A stretch of DNA of 46,950 bases from Actinomycetes bacterium. Its GTDB lineage: Bacteria; Actinomycetota; Actinomycetes; Streptosporangiales; Streptosporangiaceae. This document shows positions 1,665-46,824 of the stretch, in pieces. The notes below the pieces were generated by a model. It was not told where the DNA came from. It did no database searches and saw only the letters and a program-made list of their open reading frames with translations. The stretch covers positions 1-46,950 of the forward strand of contig JAOPYM010000570.1 of NCBI GenBank assembly GCA_025964615.1, in the 5' to 3' direction. Within the stretch, counting starts at the first letter, position 1; every line of letters starts with the position of its first letter. The translations under genes and the position numbers were made by a program.

Positions 1665-2606
1665 TCAGCGGAGCAGCTGAACCGTGCAGCCGTGGCGCAG
1701 ACGGCATGTCTGGGCGACCTCGGAGGCGGCCCGGCTGGTCAGCAGCAGGCGAAGACCTTCAAGTCCTCCGTCTGCGACGTGGTCGAACGCCAGGGCGCGC
1801 AGGGTCCCCGGCGGGAGTACGACGACGTTCGCGCCGTACGCCGAGACCGCTTCGAGGAGCGGTTCGAGGCCCGGTTCGGTGACCGCGACGAACGTGGTCC
1901 CGGTGGTCAGGGCCACGTCGATGAGCCCGATCCAGGTGGCCGACGGGCAGCCGGCACGCGCGGCCACCACCGGCTCGGACACGGCCAGCGCGGCCGAGCC
2001 GGCGAGCCGGTACAGGTCGGCCAGCCTGTCTCCGTGAGTGAAGACCTCGGGCGGGTCGTAGGTCATCAGCGCCAGATCGCGCAGCGGATCCAGCTCCACC
2101 TGGTACGTTCCCGGTGCGAGCAGCCCGGCGAAGGGCGTGGTGCCCGGCACGTCCCCGAAGGCGAAGACCTCCCGGACGTAGGATCGTTCGGCGGCTGCCA
2201 GCACCAGGGACGCGCTCGCTGCGGCGGTCACAGCGAACCGGGCGTCACCGCAGGTGAGCAGGGTGCCCAGCTCTTCGTCGGTGGCGAAGGGCGGCAACAG
2301 CGCCGGCACCGCGCCCGCCGCTGTGATCGCGTGTACGGCGAGCGCGAAGTCACGGGCCCCCGCCACGTGTACCGCCCCCACGTCGCCCACCCGGACGCCG
2401 CGGCGGACCAGACCGGCCGCCGCCGCGCGCACCAGACCGGCGAAATCGGTATGCGTGTGTCCCGCCGCCTCCCCGGCGTCGAGGAGGACGGGAGCGTCCC
2501 CCGCCTCCGCGCCGAGTACCAGCTCGGTCACCGTGAGACCATCCAGAGCGGGTGCGAATGCCTCTGCCATGCGGCGAAGGTAGTCCCCGGGGCGGGGCCG
2601 CGGCAT
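1665..2606 (-). CDS. Truncated AMP-binding (acyl-CoA synthetase-like) paralogue
   Basis: A 313-aa protein that aligns by eye with the N-terminal subdomain of its upstream neighbour (shared VTE.VLG start, VHA..AAGA, FGxxPxxxPFAxLL, LDPxRDLAL). It stops near the A5 region, so it has no C-terminal lid domain. Where the phosphate-binding loop should be (YTSGTTGxPKG in active enzymes; YTRGTTGPPRA next door) it reads MTYDPPEVFTHGDRL, so the loop is gone. It therefore should not adenylate a substrate by itself. It may be a partner subunit, a carrier-binding remnant or a decaying duplicate. It starts 28 nt after the neighbour's stop, so the two are probably co-transcribed. Start could also be the ATG at 2570. 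No frameshift is visible, which suggests the reading frame is still maintained. Confidence 0.7.
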   Translation of the reverse strand: MPRPRPGDYLRRMAEAFAPALDGLTVTELVLGAEAGDAPVLLDAGEAAGHTHTDFAGLVRAAAAGLVRRGVRVGDVGAVHVAGARDFALAVHAITAAGAVPALLPPFATDEELGTLLTCGDARFAVTAAASASLVLAAAERSYVREVFAFGDVPGTTPFAGLLAPGTYQVELDPLRDLALMTYDPPEVFTHGDRLADLYRLAGSAALAVSEPVVAARAGCPSATWIGLIDVALTTGTTFVAVTEPGLEPLLEAVSAYGANVVVLPPGTLRALAFDHVADGGLEGLRLLLTSRAASEVAQTCRLRHGCTVQLLR

Positions 2607-2634
2607 CCGCAGATCTGTGTAGCCGGATGTGTAC

Positions 2635-4095
2635 TCACAGCCGGGCCCGCTCGATCAGCGCCCGGCGGAGCACCTGCCCACTGGGCGACCTGGGGATGGC
2701 CTCGGTGAAGTGCACGGCCCGTACATGCTGGTAAGGCGGCAGGTGCCCGTTGACGTAGGCGAGCAGGTCAGGCGCGGACACCGGTTCCCTGAGCACGACG
2801 AAGGCGTGCGGGACCAGGCCCAGCTCACGGTCGGGAATCGAGGCCACCGCCGCGTCTGCCACCGCCGGATGGGCCGCGAGGACCGCCTCCGGCTCGGTCG
2901 GTGGTTCCGGCCCCGCCGAGGTCATCCGGCCCATGATGAAGACCCTGCCGTGCTCGTCGGCGAACGCCGCGTCGCCGGTCGACAGCCACTCATGCGCGCT
3001 CAGCGAGACGCTGGGGCCCTTCAGCCGCAGCTCTCCCGCCTGGTAGGAGGCCTGGTCGGTACCGGTGGCCGGGTCGATGATCCGCCAGCTCACCCCTGGC
3101 AGGCCCCGGCCCACCGAGTCGAGCGTGCCCTCCTCGGCGGCCCGCAGGTTCAGGTGGGTCAGGCCGGACGCCTCGGCCAGCCCGTACGCCTGCCGCACCG
3201 GGCAGCGCATCCGGACCGAGCAGGACCTGGCGATCTCCGGTCGCAACGGTCCGGACGTGGAGATTATCGAGCGCAGCGCACGCAGGTCGTGCCGGCCGAC
3301 CGATTGCTCGAAGGCCAGTACCTCCACCTCGGCGGGCGTGAGCAACGCGACGGTGACCCGGTGGTCCTGCAGCGCACGCAGCAGGTCGTGCCGTCCTGTG
3401 CCGGACCGGGTCACCAGCATCGCCCCGGCCCGCAGCGCCGGGCCGAGCGCCCCGGCGAACCCGAGCACGTCGGCGAACGGGATCGCGGACAGAACCGTGT
3501 CTGCCGCACTGAAGATCCCCGATGCCTGCTCGAAGCCCGCGACGACGTTCCGGTGGGTGAGCCGGACCGCCCTGGGGGGCCCGGTCGTGCCGCGGGTGTA
3601 GGGGATCAGCGCCACGTCGCGGGCGGGGTCGAGGCGGGGCCGCACCGCCGGGCTGCCGGACAGCAGCGTGGCGAAGGGTTCGACATCGGGTTCGGAGCCG
3701 AAGCAGAAGACCCGCTCGACCTCGGTCGCCTCCGCCGCCTTCAGGGCGATGTCCACCAGTACCGGCCAGCTGATGACGGCACGGGCCCCGGTCTCGGTGA
3801 GCTGCCGGGCCATCGCCTCGGCGGTGACCGTGGGCCGTATCAGGGTGAGGGTCGCGCCTGCTGCCAGCACCGCGTGCGCGGCGATCACGAACTCCGGGGT
3901 GTCGGGCAGGTGCAGCGCCACCACGGCGCCCGGGCCCAGTCCCTGCCTGACCAGGCCGGCCGCCGCCGGCCAGACGGCCGCCGCGAGTTCCGCGTACGAG
4001 ACCGTACGGCCCGAGGTGGCGTCCACCAGGGCGGCGCGGCCGCCGCGTGGCCGGTCACCGAAGACAGCCTGAGTGACCGTTACGTCGGGGATCAT
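2635..4095 (-). CDS. AMP-dependent synthetase/ligase (4-coumarate/acyl-CoA ligase-like), catalytic lysines replaced
   Basis: A 486-aa member of the adenylate-forming superfamily, which normally activates a carboxylic acid as acyl-AMP and transfers it to CoA or a carrier. Motifs visible: P-loop YTRGTTGPPRAVRLTH, A5-like QAYGLAEASGLTHLN, GELRLKGP, STGDAAF, and the C-terminal A10 region SPSGQVLRRAL. Two usually invariant lysines are changed: PKG to PRA in the P-loop and SGK to SGQ in A10, where the Lys contacts the adenylate. The A8 hinge (normally GRxKDxIK) is GRMTSAGPEPPTEPE. Family membership is clear but adenylation may be weak or lost. The track extends to 4221; I use the ATG at 4095 (MIPDVTVTQAVFG), where homology begins. 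No Shine-Dalgarno is seen there. Co-oriented downstream of the LuxR-type regulator. Confidence 0.85.
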   Translation of the reverse strand: MIPDVTVTQAVFGDRPRGGRAALVDATSGRTVSYAELAAAVWPAAAGLVRQGLGPGAVVALHLPDTPEFVIAAHAVLAAGATLTLIRPTVTAEAMARQLTETGARAVISWPVLVDIALKAAEATEVERVFCFGSEPDVEPFATLLSGSPAVRPRLDPARDVALIPYTRGTTGPPRAVRLTHRNVVAGFEQASGIFSAADTVLSAIPFADVLGFAGALGPALRAGAMLVTRSGTGRHDLLRALQDHRVTVALLTPAEVEVLAFEQSVGRHDLRALRSIISTSGPLRPEIARSCSVRMRCPVRQAYGLAEASGLTHLNLRAAEEGTLDSVGRGLPGVSWRIIDPATGTDQASYQAGELRLKGPSVSLSAHEWLSTGDAAFADEHGRVFIMGRMTSAGPEPPTEPEAVLAAHPAVADAAVASIPDRELGLVPHAFVVLREPVSAPDLLAYVNGHLPPYQHVRAVHFTEAIPRSPSGQVLRRALIERARL

Positions 4096-4173
4096 GTCGT
4101 GACAGTAGGCGTAGGAGCGCGGGCGGCACATGCGCCGACCTGTGCACTTTCCCTTGTAGCTTCCCCGGCACCG

Positions 4174-4215
4174 GCACCGATGGCTTCCCCGCGCCGACGG
4201 TGTACACATCGGTGC
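4174..4215 (-). terminator. Hairpin downstream of the LuxR-type regulator
   Basis: Inverted repeat GCACCGATG / CATCGGTGC (9 bp, 24-nt loop) about 57 nt past the stop of the minus-strand regulator and upstream of the ligase gene. Could be a terminator, or an operator for the ligase gene. Confidence 0.4.
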
Positions 4216-4271: not shown

Positions 4272-6716
4272 TCAGGTGCTTGCGCTGTTCTCGGACACCC
4301 AGGCGGCGATCTGCGCGCGGGAGGTGAAACCCAGCTTGGTGAGGATGTTGGTGACATGCCGGGCCGCCGTGGCAGGACTGATCACCAACTCGTCCGCGAC
4401 GCCCTTGTTGCTGAGGCCGCGCGCGATCATGCGGGCGACCTCCTGCTCTCTGGGGGTGAGGGTGCTCGGCGGGCTGACCGCCGGGACCGGCACCCGGTGA
4501 ACTGTGAGGTCAGCGGGGTCCGCCGTCTCCAGGGCGGAGGCGACCGCGTCGTCGGCGGACATCGCCCGGCCCTCCCCCCAGAGCTGGGCGACGGCCGGTT
4601 CACCGAGCCGCTGCCTGATCGGCTCGAGGGTCCGCTCCAGGCGGGCCCCGGTCGTGGGCCGCTGGCCGGCCGCGTCGCGCAGCGTGGCCGCGGCACCCGC
4701 CAGCCGGACGGCCCGGACGGCGTCGCCCTCCAGCGCGGTGAGGGCGGCGAACGCCTCCAGGCCCCGGGCGACCCCGAGCCGCATCCCGATGGACCGGCTC
4801 AGCGCCAGGCTCTCGGTGAAGCCGGCGCGGGCGGCCTCCAGATCGCCCTGGTCGAGGGCGACGCGGCCGATCCCGGCCAGGCAGCGGGAGATCTCCGGCA
4901 GGGCGCCGACCTCACGCAGGATGGTGAGCGCCTCCGCGAAGCGGGACCGGGCCGCCCCCGGATCACCTCGCCCGGCCGCCACCTGACCAAGACCGATCAG
5001 CGCCCGGGCCACCCCCCAGAGCTGCCGGATCCCGGCCAGCACCGCCAGGCCCGCCTCGTAATGCTGCTGGGCCTCGCGCAGCCTGCCCTGCCGGGCGTGC
5101 AGCGAGCCGCAGGTGATCAGGGCCATCCCCTCGTTCCACCGGTCCCCTTCCGCGCGGGTGACGGTGAGCTCCTCATCGAGCCGCTGTGCCGCCTGCTCGT
5201 ACCGCCCGGCGTGGATGTCGGCCTGGGCGAGGACGTCCAGGCCCGGTGCGAGCATGTAGTCGTCCTCGGCGGCCCTGCTGAGGGCCGTGCTCATGGTGGC
5301 GTGCACCTCGGCCCCCGCGAAGTCCCGCTGCTCGATGGCGAGCTGGGCCTGGCAGACCAGCGCCGCGGCCCGTACCCCTGCCGAGACCTCACCGGAGTGC
5401 CGCAGGAAGCCCGTGGTCCAGTCGGTCAGCTCGGCGTAATGGCCGCGCGGCACCAAGTACGGCCGCAGGGCCGTGCAGAGCCGCAGCCCCTCCTCGAACT
5501 CCCCGGCCCGCATCGACCAGGCCAGAGCGGCGCGGACGTCGTCGAGCTCATGGTCGTACTTGACGAACAGATCGACCCTGACCTGCCAGGACGCGGGCCG
5601 GTCACCGAACGAGACCTCGGCGTCGTACTCGAGCCGCTCGAGGATCTGGTCACGGTGGCGGCGGCGCAGCTCCGCCTCCTCGCCCGCCTCGGTGAGGCGT
5701 TCGAGTGCGTACTGCCGGACGCTCTCCGGCAGCCGGAACCGGGTCTCGCCCGCCCATTCCCGGTCGACGACGACCAGGGACTTGTCGACCAGCGCGGTGA
5801 GCAGGTCGAGCACGTCGTCCTCGGGGAGGTCCTCGGCCCGGCACACCTGTTCGGCCTGGCCGAGCGTCCAGCCGGTGAAGACCGCGAGCCGCCGCAGCAG
5901 CCTTCGCTCCGGTTCCTCGAGCAGATCATGGCTCCAGTCGATGGCGGCGCGCAGCGTCCGCTGCCGGGGCGGGGCGGTCCGATCGCCCGCGCTGAGCAGC
6001 TGGAACCGGTCGGCGAGCCGCGCGGCGAGCTCCGCCACCGACAGCACCCGCATCCTGGCCGCCGCCAGCTCGATGGCCAGCGGCACCCCGTCCAGCGAAC
6101 GGCACACCTCGGCGACCGCGGCGGCGTTGCCGGAGGTGACCTCGAAGCCGGGCCGGACCTCCCTGGCCCGTTCCACGAGGAGGCGGACCGCCTCGTGGTC
6201 CAGCACTTCCGGGACGGTGAGTACGCCGGTGGCCGGGCTCGCCAGCGGCGGGACCCGCCACACGTTCTCCCCCGGCATCCGCAACGGCTCCCTGCTGGTC
6301 GCCAGCAGGCGCAGCCCAGGACAGGACGCGAGCAGCAGCTTGCAGAGCCGGGCACAGTCGTCGACGAGATGCTCGCAGTTGTCCAGCACGAGGAGCACCC
6401 GCCGGGCCCGCAACGCGTCCACGATGATCTCGTCTAGCGGCCTGCCGGGCTCCCCGGCTAGCCCGAGCGCGAGTGCGAGCCTGCGGGCCACCGGGTCCGG
6501 GGAGGCCGTGACCTCGCCGAGCTCGACGAGCAGTGCCCCGTCGGGGCTCTCGGCCACCAGGGCGCGGGCCACCCGCAACGCGAGGCGGGTCTTGCCGATG
6601 CCTCCCGGCCCGCAGAGGGTCACGGCCCTGGTCGCATCGACCAAGCGGCACAGGTCGCCGACATCCCGCTCACGGCCGACGAAGCCGTTGGGTTCGGCAG
6701 GAAGACTGTTTCTCAT
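4272..6716 (-). CDS. LuxR-family STAND regulator (NB-ARC-like ATPase, TPR, C-terminal HTH)
   Basis: An 814-aa transcription regulator of the large ATP-binding LuxR type. From the N-terminus: NGFVGRERD entry motif, Walker A GPGGIGKT (about residues 36-43), Walker B LVLDNCEHL, RxTSREPL sensor region, a winged-helix linker (RTLRAAIDWSHDLL), a long helical TPR-like middle, and a C-terminal LuxR HTH (TPREQEVARMIARGLSNKGV..PATAARHVTNILTKLG). Such proteins act as nucleotide-controlled switches that bind promoter DNA as oligomers. The track begins at a GTG at 6755. I prefer the ATG at 6716 because it gives the usual MxxxLPAEPNGFVGRE start, though neither has a good ribosome site. It is upstream of, and co-oriented with, the ligase pair, which it may control. 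Confidence 0.9.
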   Translation of the reverse strand: MRNSLPAEPNGFVGRERDVGDLCRLVDATRAVTLCGPGGIGKTRLALRVARALVAESPDGALLVELGEVTASPDPVARRLALALGLAGEPGRPLDEIIVDALRARRVLLVLDNCEHLVDDCARLCKLLLASCPGLRLLATSREPLRMPGENVWRVPPLASPATGVLTVPEVLDHEAVRLLVERAREVRPGFEVTSGNAAAVAEVCRSLDGVPLAIELAAARMRVLSVAELAARLADRFQLLSAGDRTAPPRQRTLRAAIDWSHDLLEEPERRLLRRLAVFTGWTLGQAEQVCRAEDLPEDDVLDLLTALVDKSLVVVDREWAGETRFRLPESVRQYALERLTEAGEEAELRRRHRDQILERLEYDAEVSFGDRPASWQVRVDLFVKYDHELDDVRAALAWSMRAGEFEEGLRLCTALRPYLVPRGHYAELTDWTTGFLRHSGEVSAGVRAAALVCQAQLAIEQRDFAGAEVHATMSTALSRAAEDDYMLAPGLDVLAQADIHAGRYEQAAQRLDEELTVTRAEGDRWNEGMALITCGSLHARQGRLREAQQHYEAGLAVLAGIRQLWGVARALIGLGQVAAGRGDPGAARSRFAEALTILREVGALPEISRCLAGIGRVALDQGDLEAARAGFTESLALSRSIGMRLGVARGLEAFAALTALEGDAVRAVRLAGAAATLRDAAGQRPTTGARLERTLEPIRQRLGEPAVAQLWGEGRAMSADDAVASALETADPADLTVHRVPVPAVSPPSTLTPREQEVARMIARGLSNKGVADELVISPATAARHVTNILTKLGFTSRAQIAAWVSENSAST

Positions 6717-6903
6717 ACACCCAGACTTCGGTCCGTTGACCTCCCATACGGTCACTGCGAGTCTGGCACCGGTGACCTCCCGGCGTCATTGGAATCCAGA
6801 CGTTGGGCGGCGCTCCGATTTTGCCCCGGATCCCATGGCGTGCCCGGTCCCACCGGCCTCGACGACGAGCACACCGACCGGGTCCGCGCGTCGGCGCAGT
6901 GGG

Positions 6904-21015: not shown

Positions 21016-21171
21016 TCACTTGCCCAGCTGGTTGACGAACTTCGCCACCGAGTCACCGGCGCCCGCGAGCTGGTGGAACGCGCCGTTCACCACGTTGGCG
21101 GCGTTCGTGGGCTGACTGAACAGGTAGAACAACACGAAGGCGATGGCCACATAGCGGAGGTTCTTCTTCAT
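21016..21171 (-). CDS. 51-aa membrane peptide, paralogue 1 (not in ORF track)
   Basis: Below the 60-aa track cutoff. Reads MKKNLRYVAIAFVLFYLFSQP, then a segment with AANVVNGAFHQLAGAG, ending DSVAKFVNQLGK. One N-terminal membrane helix followed by a short amphipathic helix. It matches the 50-aa protein 200 bases upstream in spacing: MKKxL, FVxxYL, P, AAxVVxG, LAxA, S, FV. AGAGGGA lies about nine bases before the ATG. Downstream on the minus strand an AT run (TTTTTT) follows a short GC-rich stretch at 20981-20996. Function unknown; probably membrane associated. Proximity to an LCP protein suggests a cell-wall role, which is inference. Confidence 0.7.
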   Translation of the reverse strand: MKKNLRYVAIAFVLFYLFSQPTNAANVVNGAFHQLAGAGDSVAKFVNQLGK

Positions 21172-21327
21172 CGGTCGCCGTCCCTCTTGTTACGCAGTGA
21201 CACACTGACCCTATTCAGTTGTGCCCAACTGTCCCTGACCTCAAAGAGAGTTTCATGTAGCGGCCTGCGGATGTATGTGATTGAGGTCACCTCCAACTGT
21301 CACACACCGTTACTTTGACGCACAGAA

Positions 21328-21353
21328 GCCCCGTGCCCGGACAGGCACGGGGC
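21328..21353 (-). terminator. Terminator between the two membrane-peptide genes
   Basis: GCCCCGTGCC / GGCACGGGGC, perfect 10-bp stem with a 6-nt loop, 17 nt after the stop of paralogue 2. Confidence 0.75.
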
Positions 21354-21370
21354 CGGCGACCTCCCACGGT

Positions 21371-21523
21371 CTACGGCATCGAGCTCACGAACTGGCCGAG
21401 CGAGTTCGCCGCTGCCGCGAGCCCGTTGATCATGCCGTGGACCACGCTGGCCGCTTGGTGAGGCTTGGCGACCAAGTACCAGACCACGAAGCCGATTCCG
21501 CCCCATTTCAGATACTTCTTCAT
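21371..21523 (-). CDS. 50-aa membrane peptide, paralogue 2
   Basis: Reads MKKYLKWGGIGFVVWYLVAKP followed by QAASVVHGMINGLAAAANSL and a QFVSSMP end. The ATG-track entry (21371..21661) adds unrelated residues; the real start at 21523 is set by similarity to paralogue 1. One membrane helix plus a C-terminal amphipathic helix. It lies 88 nt downstream of the LCP gene on the same strand and has its own terminator, so it is a separately ended transcript or the end of an LCP operon. Function unknown. Confidence 0.7.
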   Translation of the reverse strand: MKKYLKWGGIGFVVWYLVAKPHQAASVVHGMINGLAAAANSLGQFVSSMP

Positions 21524-44904: not shown

Positions 44905-46824
44905 ATGGCCAACCCGAGCGGAGCCGACCGCCGCCCGATCAATCTCGCACCGCACGCTCTTCCGAATCACGCCATCCGGGCGGTGGACTATCTTCGGATC
45001 AGCACGGAGGAACAGAAGCTCGGCTACGGCATCGCCAGTCAGGGCCGGAAGAACGCACGCTACATCGAGCTTCGGGGATGGACCCACGTCGGCACCTACA
45101 AGGACGAAGGTGTGTCCGGCTCCAAGGAGATGGGCGAGCGACTGGACTTCGGCCGCCTCATGGAGAGCGCCCGGCACGGTGAGTTCGATCTCGTCGTGGT
45201 GGAGAGTGGCGATCGCATCGGCCGTGTAGGCCGGGCTTTCTGGCGCTGGGTCTGGGCGCTGGAAGACATCGGGATCTTCGTCGCTATCGTCAACCAGCAC
45301 ATCGACAGCACCACGCCTGAGGGCCGCTCGCAGATGCGGCGCCTGGCGGACTACGCCGAGAACGAGTGGGAGACCATCCGCTCCCGGACCCAAGGCGGAC
45401 TTCAAGAGAAAGCCCAGGAGGAAGGCTCGCCGCACATTGGCGGGAAGCCCCCGTTCGGCTATCGCATCGAGGGCAAAGGAACAAGAGACTCGTACCTCGT
45501 AATCGACGAGAGCGAGGCGAGGATCGTTCGCCGCGTTTACGACATGGCTGTGGCCGGCGGACTCAACCTTCGGCAGATCGCTGTCCGGCTCAACAGCGAG
45601 GGAATCACGTCCCGATCAGGGCGGCCCTGGTCACCGGCCAACCTTCGGGATCGGATCATGTCCCGCGCCGTTCTCGACGGACAACTGATCTTCCGCGGCG
45701 AGCACGCCGCGACCGACGCCGACGGCGAGCCGCTATGGGGTGAGTCAGTCACGATCGTACTCCCCCGGGTCTTAACGGAGGAGGAGGCTGCGACCCTCCG
45801 GCGGAGGATCTCCCCGAGGGCGAAGAACAGCAACCGCAAACAAGCGTGCTACCCGCTCAGTGGACGCTTGATAGGACTCTGCAATGCGAAGTACGTCGGG
45901 ATCAGCCGCGAGTCCGTCGCGTATGGGCGCCGGAGCTACCGCTGCAGTGGCAAAAACGATGCAGTCGTCTGTACCTGCTCATATGTGGATGCCCAGACCG
46001 TGGAGAGCCATGTCTGGTCCGAGGTCGTCAGGCTGCTCGACGGCTTCGGGAGCCTGCAGCAGCTTGCAGCGGAGTCGGCCAGCATGCCTGAGGGCGACCC
46101 GTCAGCGCACGAAGAGCGGATCGCCCGACTCGACCGGCAGATCGAGGATATGAATGCCTCGATAGCTGCCGTACTCGTGGCGTCGGCCGAACAGCGGCAG
46201 TCACCGGACGCCATCGCGGCAGCAACGAAGGTTCTCAACGACGAGCTGCAGCAGCTGGAAGAGATGCGGACCGAGGCCGCGGCCTGGCTGGCGGAGATCG
46301 AGGAGGCCGGCCGTCGCGCCGATGCCATCACAATTCTCGGGGAGATGGCTCGACATCAGCTGGTGGACATGTCGCCCATCGAGCAGGGCCAAGTGTTCGC
46401 TCTGCTCGATGTGAAGGTGTTCATCGAGGGCCCAGTACCTCCACGGCGGCGTGGGGTGGCCTGCACAGTCCGGGACTGGTACCGGTCCGCTGACCTTGAG
46501 GTCCCTGCCAGAGATCTCTCGGACGAGCAGTGGGACCTGATCGCCGCGCTGCTCCCAGAGGGCCGCCGCGGAAGAGCTCGCCGATCAGTGGAAGCCATCT
46601 TCGCCAAGGCGCGCACCGGAGCCGCCTGGTCTGGGCTACGAGATGAGTACGGCTCGACCAGCACGGCTTCGAAGTACTTCACGAAGTGGGTGGCAGACGG
46701 TACTTGGGCGCGGGTCAACGCGGTGCTCTCGGACGTGGAGCGATGCCCGCTCCCCATGCTAGATCTCGTACTCCCGCTGCGAATCGAAGGTCGGCTGGAC
46801 CCACGCGTGACGCTGATCCCGTAA
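44905..46824 (+). CDS. Large serine recombinase with a DUF4096-like C-terminal domain
   Basis: A 639-aa site-specific recombinase. Resolvase catalytic domain (about residues 24-165) with nucleophile Ser33 in VDYLRISTEEQ, and ESGDRIGRVGRAFWRW; recombinase domain (about 185-290, GGKPPFGYRI..NLRQIAVRLNSEG); a zinc ribbon whose first CxxC is reduced to GLCNAKY (four Cys remain: 326, 347, 356, 358); a coiled coil (about 400-480). The last 100 residues read DLSDEQWDLIAALLPEGRRGRARR..ARTGAAWSGLRDEYGSTSTASKYFTKWVADGTWARVNAVL, which matches the N-terminal domain of IS5-type transposases (DUF4096). ATG with AGGAG five bases upstream; the track start at 43954 is a shadow. Could act as an integrase or mobilise an element; no phage genes or attachment site are visible. 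Confidence 0.92.
   Translation: MANPSGADRRPINLAPHALPNHAIRAVDYLRISTEEQKLGYGIASQGRKNARYIELRGWTHVGTYKDEGVSGSKEMGERLDFGRLMESARHGEFDLVVVESGDRIGRVGRAFWRWVWALEDIGIFVAIVNQHIDSTTPEGRSQMRRLADYAENEWETIRSRTQGGLQEKAQEEGSPHIGGKPPFGYRIEGKGTRDSYLVIDESEARIVRRVYDMAVAGGLNLRQIAVRLNSEGITSRSGRPWSPANLRDRIMSRAVLDGQLIFRGEHAATDADGEPLWGESVTIVLPRVLTEEEAATLRRRISPRAKNSNRKQACYPLSGRLIGLCNAKYVGISRESVAYGRRSYRCSGKNDAVVCTCSYVDAQTVESHVWSEVVRLLDGFGSLQQLAAESASMPEGDPSAHEERIARLDRQIEDMNASIAAVLVASAEQRQSPDAIAAATKVLNDELQQLEEMRTEAAAWLAEIEEAGRRADAITILGEMARHQLVDMSPIEQGQVFALLDVKVFIEGPVPPRRRGVACTVRDWYRSADLEVPARDLSDEQWDLIAALLPEGRRGRARRSVEAIFAKARTGAAWSGLRDEYGSTSTASKYFTKWVADGTWARVNAVLSDVERCPLPMLDLVLPLRIEGRLDPRVTLIP

Follow-up and report, generated by a model that had tools for sequence, protein, structure and literature searches.

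A conserved pair of predicted non-catalytic acyl-CoA ligase relatives associated with a STAND-LuxR regulator in Streptosporangiaceae

The window analyzed here, a stretch of 46,950 nt from an actinobacterial contig, carries two adjacent genes on its minus strand that a first-pass annotation had described as tandem adenylate-forming paralogues, and both open frames are present at the positions it gave. The upstream gene, P0001 (2635-4095), encodes a full-length predicted ANL pseudoenzyme of 486 aa, and the downstream gene, P0002 (1665-2570), encodes a truncated one of 301 aa that was assigned by sequence motifs, Pfam, and Foldseek. Upstream of both, on the same strand, lies the gene for a STAND-family LuxR-type regulator of 814 aa (4272-6716; the longest ORF begins at 6755), which combines a NOD ATPase, a TPR sensor, and a C-terminal GerE/LuxR HTH domain (Pfam GerE, TPR_12, AAA_22, and NB-ARC). 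Promoter scans and alignments located two predicted -10 boxes: TACTGT (4102-4107, minus strand), 6 nt before the ATG of P0001, a leaderless-type start, and TACCTT (2577-2582, minus strand), with the same spacing to the ATG of P0002 at 2570. Each is preceded by an operator-like element on the minus strand: the A-type element TACAAG-N6-TGCACA-N6-CGCATGTG (4127-4158) upstream of P0001, and the B-type element TACACA-N6-TACACA-N6-CGGATG (2604-2633) in the intergenic gap past the P0001 stop codon. Elsewhere in the window, a frame of ~613 aa at its edge (44983-46824) resembles a large serine recombinase, and 21016-21523 holds a tandem pair of similar 50-51 aa frames with hydrophobic N-termini.

Both proteins belong to the ANL superfamily, as indicated by PF00501 AMP-binding profile scores of 221 bits for P0001 and 46 bits for P0002 (cut-off 29.9), and P0001 aligns over nearly its full length with 4-coumarate-CoA ligase (4CL; 3a9u, E 1.6e-53). 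The two substitutions reported by the first-pass annotation were confirmed: Arg stands at the position of the P-loop Lys (R175; YTRGTTGPPRAV vs YSSGTTGLPKGV in 4CL) and Gln at that of the A10 Lys (Q474; PSGQVLRR vs PSGKILRK in 4CL). The A8 segment (KELIKYKG in 4CL) is missing from P0001 as well, a point absent from that annotation; A5, A7 Asp375, and Arg390 are retained. We aligned 31 P0001 orthologues, from 30 related genomes plus the window, 29 of which could be scored at A10. The P-loop Lys is present in one (L081) and the A10 Lys in none of the 29, with Arg found instead at the P-loop position in 27/31 and at A10 in 23/29; L094, outside this alignment, has the P-loop Lys and an Arg at A10. 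Intact lysines in orthologues, which the first-pass annotation had named as refuting its reading, are therefore limited to the P-loops of L081 and L094. The aligned orthologues share the A8 deletion, some have a scrambled P-loop (VVWGRGEQGRAGDVV), and L065 and L067 stop before A10. The adenine/ribose motifs are kept: the A5 Tyr/Gly in 31/31, the A5 Glu in 30/31, and A7 Asp375 and Arg390 in 31/31. P0001 and P0002 are predicted from these sequence features to be non-catalytic relatives of acyl-CoA ligases. Many such proteins are probably annotated as acyl-CoA synthetases in databases, a label that is probably wrong.

P0002 had been described as an N-terminal subdomain without a P-loop. The loss of the P-loop stands, whereas the extent required revision: P0002 aligns with P0001 over residues 21-310 with 33% identity, ends just before A5, and therefore spans both α/β subdomains of the large domain. 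Everything from A5 on, including the C-terminal domain, is missing, and the Pfam match is limited to residues 35-139. The start is likely the ATG at 2570 (301 aa) rather than that at 2606; the former sits 6 nt past the TACCTT box and the latter falls inside the operator-like element. The family shares a block S-x-V-R-Q-V-x-A-F-G, which reads S-Y-V-R-E-V-F-A-F-G in the window. A structure model built from five sequences had a mean pLDDT of 57, with residues 231-300 mostly near 90, and the Foldseek matches listed for it were all ANL proteins (E about 1e-8 to 1e-7, TM at most about 0.39). Because the model is of low confidence, the case for a kept fold is drawn mainly from the sequence; these results support the fold family but not the packing. 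NCBIfam TIGR03089, which we take to describe short actinobacterial AMP-binding relatives, was absent from the full match lists of P0002, L082, L083, and L086 and from the best 25 matches for L084 and L085, in a release that may not include the model.

Among 343 genomes searched in the window's family, about 31 carry the pair in this order with the same STAND-LuxR gene upstream, which excludes a chance arrangement. The named genomes among the carriers are Actinomadura, and the window's genus is sampled by the window's own genome only. Selection was estimated for close pairs by the NG86 method, giving ω values, approximate because of GC-rich codon bias, of 0.11-0.60 for P0001 and 0.03-0.64 for P0002, and of 0.17-0.26 for a flanking aldehyde dehydrogenase. 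The dN/dS check proposed in the first pass hence gave no pseudogene signal: all tested pairs lay well below 1 and none approached it, which, together with the conserved family, bears out its view that open frames of this kind do not reflect simple decay. In most pairs, ω for P0001 and P0002 exceeds that of the aldehyde dehydrogenase or of cluster-3 genes, so the constraint is relaxed. The two genes also occur singly with the regulator adjoining: L073, L074, and most genera have P0002 alone, and L118 has P0001 alone. We therefore rejected an obligate P0001-P0002 complex as a requirement, and the earlier suggestion that the pair forms a complex is unsupported as stated: since the single-member genomes keep the regulator, the proteins need not act together.

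Truncated proteins resembling P0002, of ~210-350 aa as called, occur in many other genera. Within the window's family, a profile built from 23 of them matched 184/343 genomes, in 36/68 genera, at E<=1e-50; full-length P0001-like copies, which reach this level too, may account for a few of the matches. No score above 200 bits was obtained outside the window's family in a class sample of 395 genomes, where the best match, a full-length frame, reached 148 bits. In a phylogenetic tree that included six enzymes, all truncated ANL proteins form one clade (bootstrap 100), which groups with the P0001-like proteins (bootstrap 98) to the exclusion of those enzymes. A distant version of the pair is present in one genus (L100). 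We found no description of this ANL family, or of ANL/acyl-CoA-ligase pseudoenzymes with regulators, in the open-licence literature.

The surroundings of the truncated genes were also recorded. Tandem arrays in which STAND-LuxR genes alternate with truncated ANL genes were seen in L098, L113, and L120, the latter two adjoining a gene that resembles typA. In several genera, a sugar-type ABC transporter lies 3' of the truncated gene on the same strand, as in L083 (SBP_bac_1 and BPD_transp_1), L088, L091, L102, L105, L107, L110, and L125-L127, and a MalK-like ATPase and an Lrp/AsnC regulator adjoin it in L089-L090. These sugar transporter and MalK-like neighbors suggest a link to carbohydrates, as for MalT.

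Gene neighbors vary between lineages and the regulator is constant. Of 78 module loci, picked by similarity to P0002, 68 have a homologue of the window's STAND-LuxR gene at most two genes away, versus none of 19 ordinary ANL genes in the window's genome, a control from a single fragmented assembly; the association with a LuxR-type regulator postulated in the first pass thus extends across genera. The 10 loci without the regulator are mostly cut by contig ends, and L094 is a true exception. The regulator matches the MalT-type STAND-LuxR plan, with NOD, TPR sensor, C-terminal LuxR HTH, and a Walker A motif kept in the aligned orthologues, and its HTH is 67% identical across genera versus 37% for the sensor region. 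As a separate matter, an anti-phage system was considered and rejected: PADLOC returned no match for the ANL proteins and just TPR/HTH fragments for the regulator.

Leaderless actinobacterial promoters carry a TANNNT -10 box 6-7 nt before the ATG. A scan of upstream regions found such a box, at this distance, for most module ANL genes; it was not seen for the genes of some genera, e.g. L084-L086, L103, and L104, so the promoter pattern is not universal. A three-block element stands at a fixed distance 5' of the -10 box, reading TACACA-N6-TACAYA-N6-CGGATG at P0002-type genes and, in a related form, TAC...TGCRCA...GCATGTG at P0001. The A-type element is conserved at a fixed distance from the -10 box in the 26 aligned P0001-type promoters. 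For the three-block element in general, the bases that separate it from the -10 box are poorly conserved, hence its conservation does not reflect mere relatedness.

In the 6.07-Mb genome of the window, the A-type element has its sole match at up to 2 mismatches (control 0) and the B-type element its sole match at up to 3 mismatches. Across the family, the B-type element occurs exactly once in each of 95/343 genomes (reversed control 0), and 85 of these 95 matches lie 7-246 nt upstream of a matched truncated ANL gene on the same strand. Three of the other ten (G086, G137, and G342) are at a truncated ANL gene or its remnant, five (G045, G046, G180, G332, and G339) have no adjoining ANL gene, and those of G170 and G341 were left unclassed. 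The pattern was derived from these same genes, and the informative part is therefore the absence of other sites rather than the presence of sites there. Where the element adjoins the regulator without an ANL gene (G045, G046, and G339), it may also serve the regulator itself; conversely, in L166 the element stays with the ANL gene even though this gene is convergent to the regulator.

Further sites were noted in the same regions. Element-like sites occur where the ANL gene is missing in L159, L160, L163, L164, and L167, three of them adjoining the STAND-LuxR gene and pointing away. L074, which has no P0001, shows a second, A-type-like site at ~8616 between the regulator and P0002, possibly a relic of a lost P0001. 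A second candidate operator, the palindrome TGTGTACAC (4200-4208, no strand assigned), lies upstream of P0001; this palindrome (TGTGTACACA) recurs 5' of the P0001 orthologues L048-L072 at a variable distance, in contrast to the fixed spacing of the element, and is possibly the site of a second regulator.

The ANL genes, the STAND-LuxR gene, and a dedicated promoter element form one module. A selected, old family that travels with one MalT-like factor and has its own control site probably consists of regulatory proteins rather than enzymes, and we give an even chance to the more specific reading, suggested by gene and motif comparisons, that P0001 and P0002 feed back on the upstream regulator. 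We infer that the regulator binds the element and activates, that the ANL proteins contact the regulator, and that a ligand is involved. The activated regulator would bind the operator-like elements overlapping the -35 region of the leaderless P0001 and P0002 promoters and thereby switch both on, and the ANL proteins would then tune the regulator by binding its resting or active form, in the way that MalY and Aes act on MalT. P0001, with its adenine/ribose pocket kept and its catalytic lysines lost, may report a nucleotide, acyl-adenylate, or CoA-type ligand, while protein contact would be the main mode of action of P0002, which is the core partner in most genera. The first-pass annotation had left a scaffold, a regulatory sensor, and a CoA or carrier-handling role side by side; the regulatory or sensor options are favored by the dedicated operator-like element and by an association with STAND-LuxR genes that spans genera, and no evidence points to CoA or carrier handling. 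More tentatively, and with somewhat less than even confidence, we suggest that an undescribed ANL pseudoenzyme family was recruited once, early in the Streptosporangiaceae-type lineage, as a dedicated ligand-sensing or inhibitory STAND-LuxR partner, with a private operator putting each pseudoenzyme gene under control of that factor and making up a self-contained acyl/adenylate-sensing switch.

The same observations could be read differently. The ANL proteins might be the output of the STAND-LuxR regulator, its main target, and act elsewhere, for instance by pairing with an active acyl-CoA ligase and inhibiting it, or by sequestering a ligand of acyl or nucleotide type. Genomes with the element have a single copy of it, at the ANL gene, and the regulator may therefore have no other target of this type. 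Ordinary ANL paralogues are abundant, with 45 AMP-binding profile matches in the genome. However, a sole, non-enzyme target beside the regulator's own gene is more economically explained as a feedback loop, and neighbors vary between lineages while the regulator stays, making this reading rather unlikely in our view. It is improbable, to a greater degree, that P0001 is an enzyme of altered chemistry, for example performing a thioesterification half-reaction or using Arg at the P-loop and A10 positions, with P0002 as an accessory subunit. The frequent Arg at both positions is a charge-keeping change and A5 and A7 are nearly invariant; nevertheless, the A8 loop is deleted, two orthologues end before A10, some P-loops are scrambled, and genomes with P0002 alone offer no catalytic partner at the locus.

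Decay to pseudogenes would account for the missing catalytic residues, for the lack of a P0001 gene in L073 and L074, and for the few elements that persist where the ANL gene is missing (G180 and G332), but it has very little probability. The frames are open with ω below 1 in every pair, the truncated clade is monophyletic across 36 genera, and the promoter element is strongly constrained; at the family level, conservation, ω, and the tree refute it. We retain feedback on the regulator as the preferred reading.

The closest parallel is MalT of E. coli, which has the same plan of NOD, TPR-like sensor, and LuxR HTH as the window regulator and is a STAND-LuxR factor inhibited by the enzyme-derived proteins MalY and Aes (PMC10427625, PMC4381067). 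MalY blocks one oligomerization surface of resting MalT, and what MalY and Aes contribute physiologically to MalT control has been described as unclear (PMC10427625). Control by proteins derived from metabolic enzymes is common to both cases, although here it is proposed from gene linkage and a shared promoter element. MalY and Aes are still enzymes, with other folds (PLP-dependent and esterase, respectively), whereas the partner here is a predicted ANL pseudoenzyme that, unlike them, is encoded next to the regulator and carries a dedicated promoter element. By gene order, this private element, and conservation over tens of genera, the module ties a seemingly dead ligase to a STAND factor, so that the question of why a STAND regulator has an enzyme-like partner becomes testable. 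With 4CL and FadD (PF00501 and PF13193; 3a9u and 3g7s), P0001 has the fold, A5, and A7 in common; unlike them, it lacks the P-loop Lys, the A8 loop, and the A10 Lys, and in P0002 the losses extend to the P-loop, the remainder of the large domain, and the C-terminal domain. As far as two reports describe actinobacterial leaderless promoters (PMC3898074, PMC3160421), these share with the module genes the TAnnnT box 6-7 nt before the ATG, and differ from them in that a conserved three-block element lies over the -35 region here and is specific to these genes.
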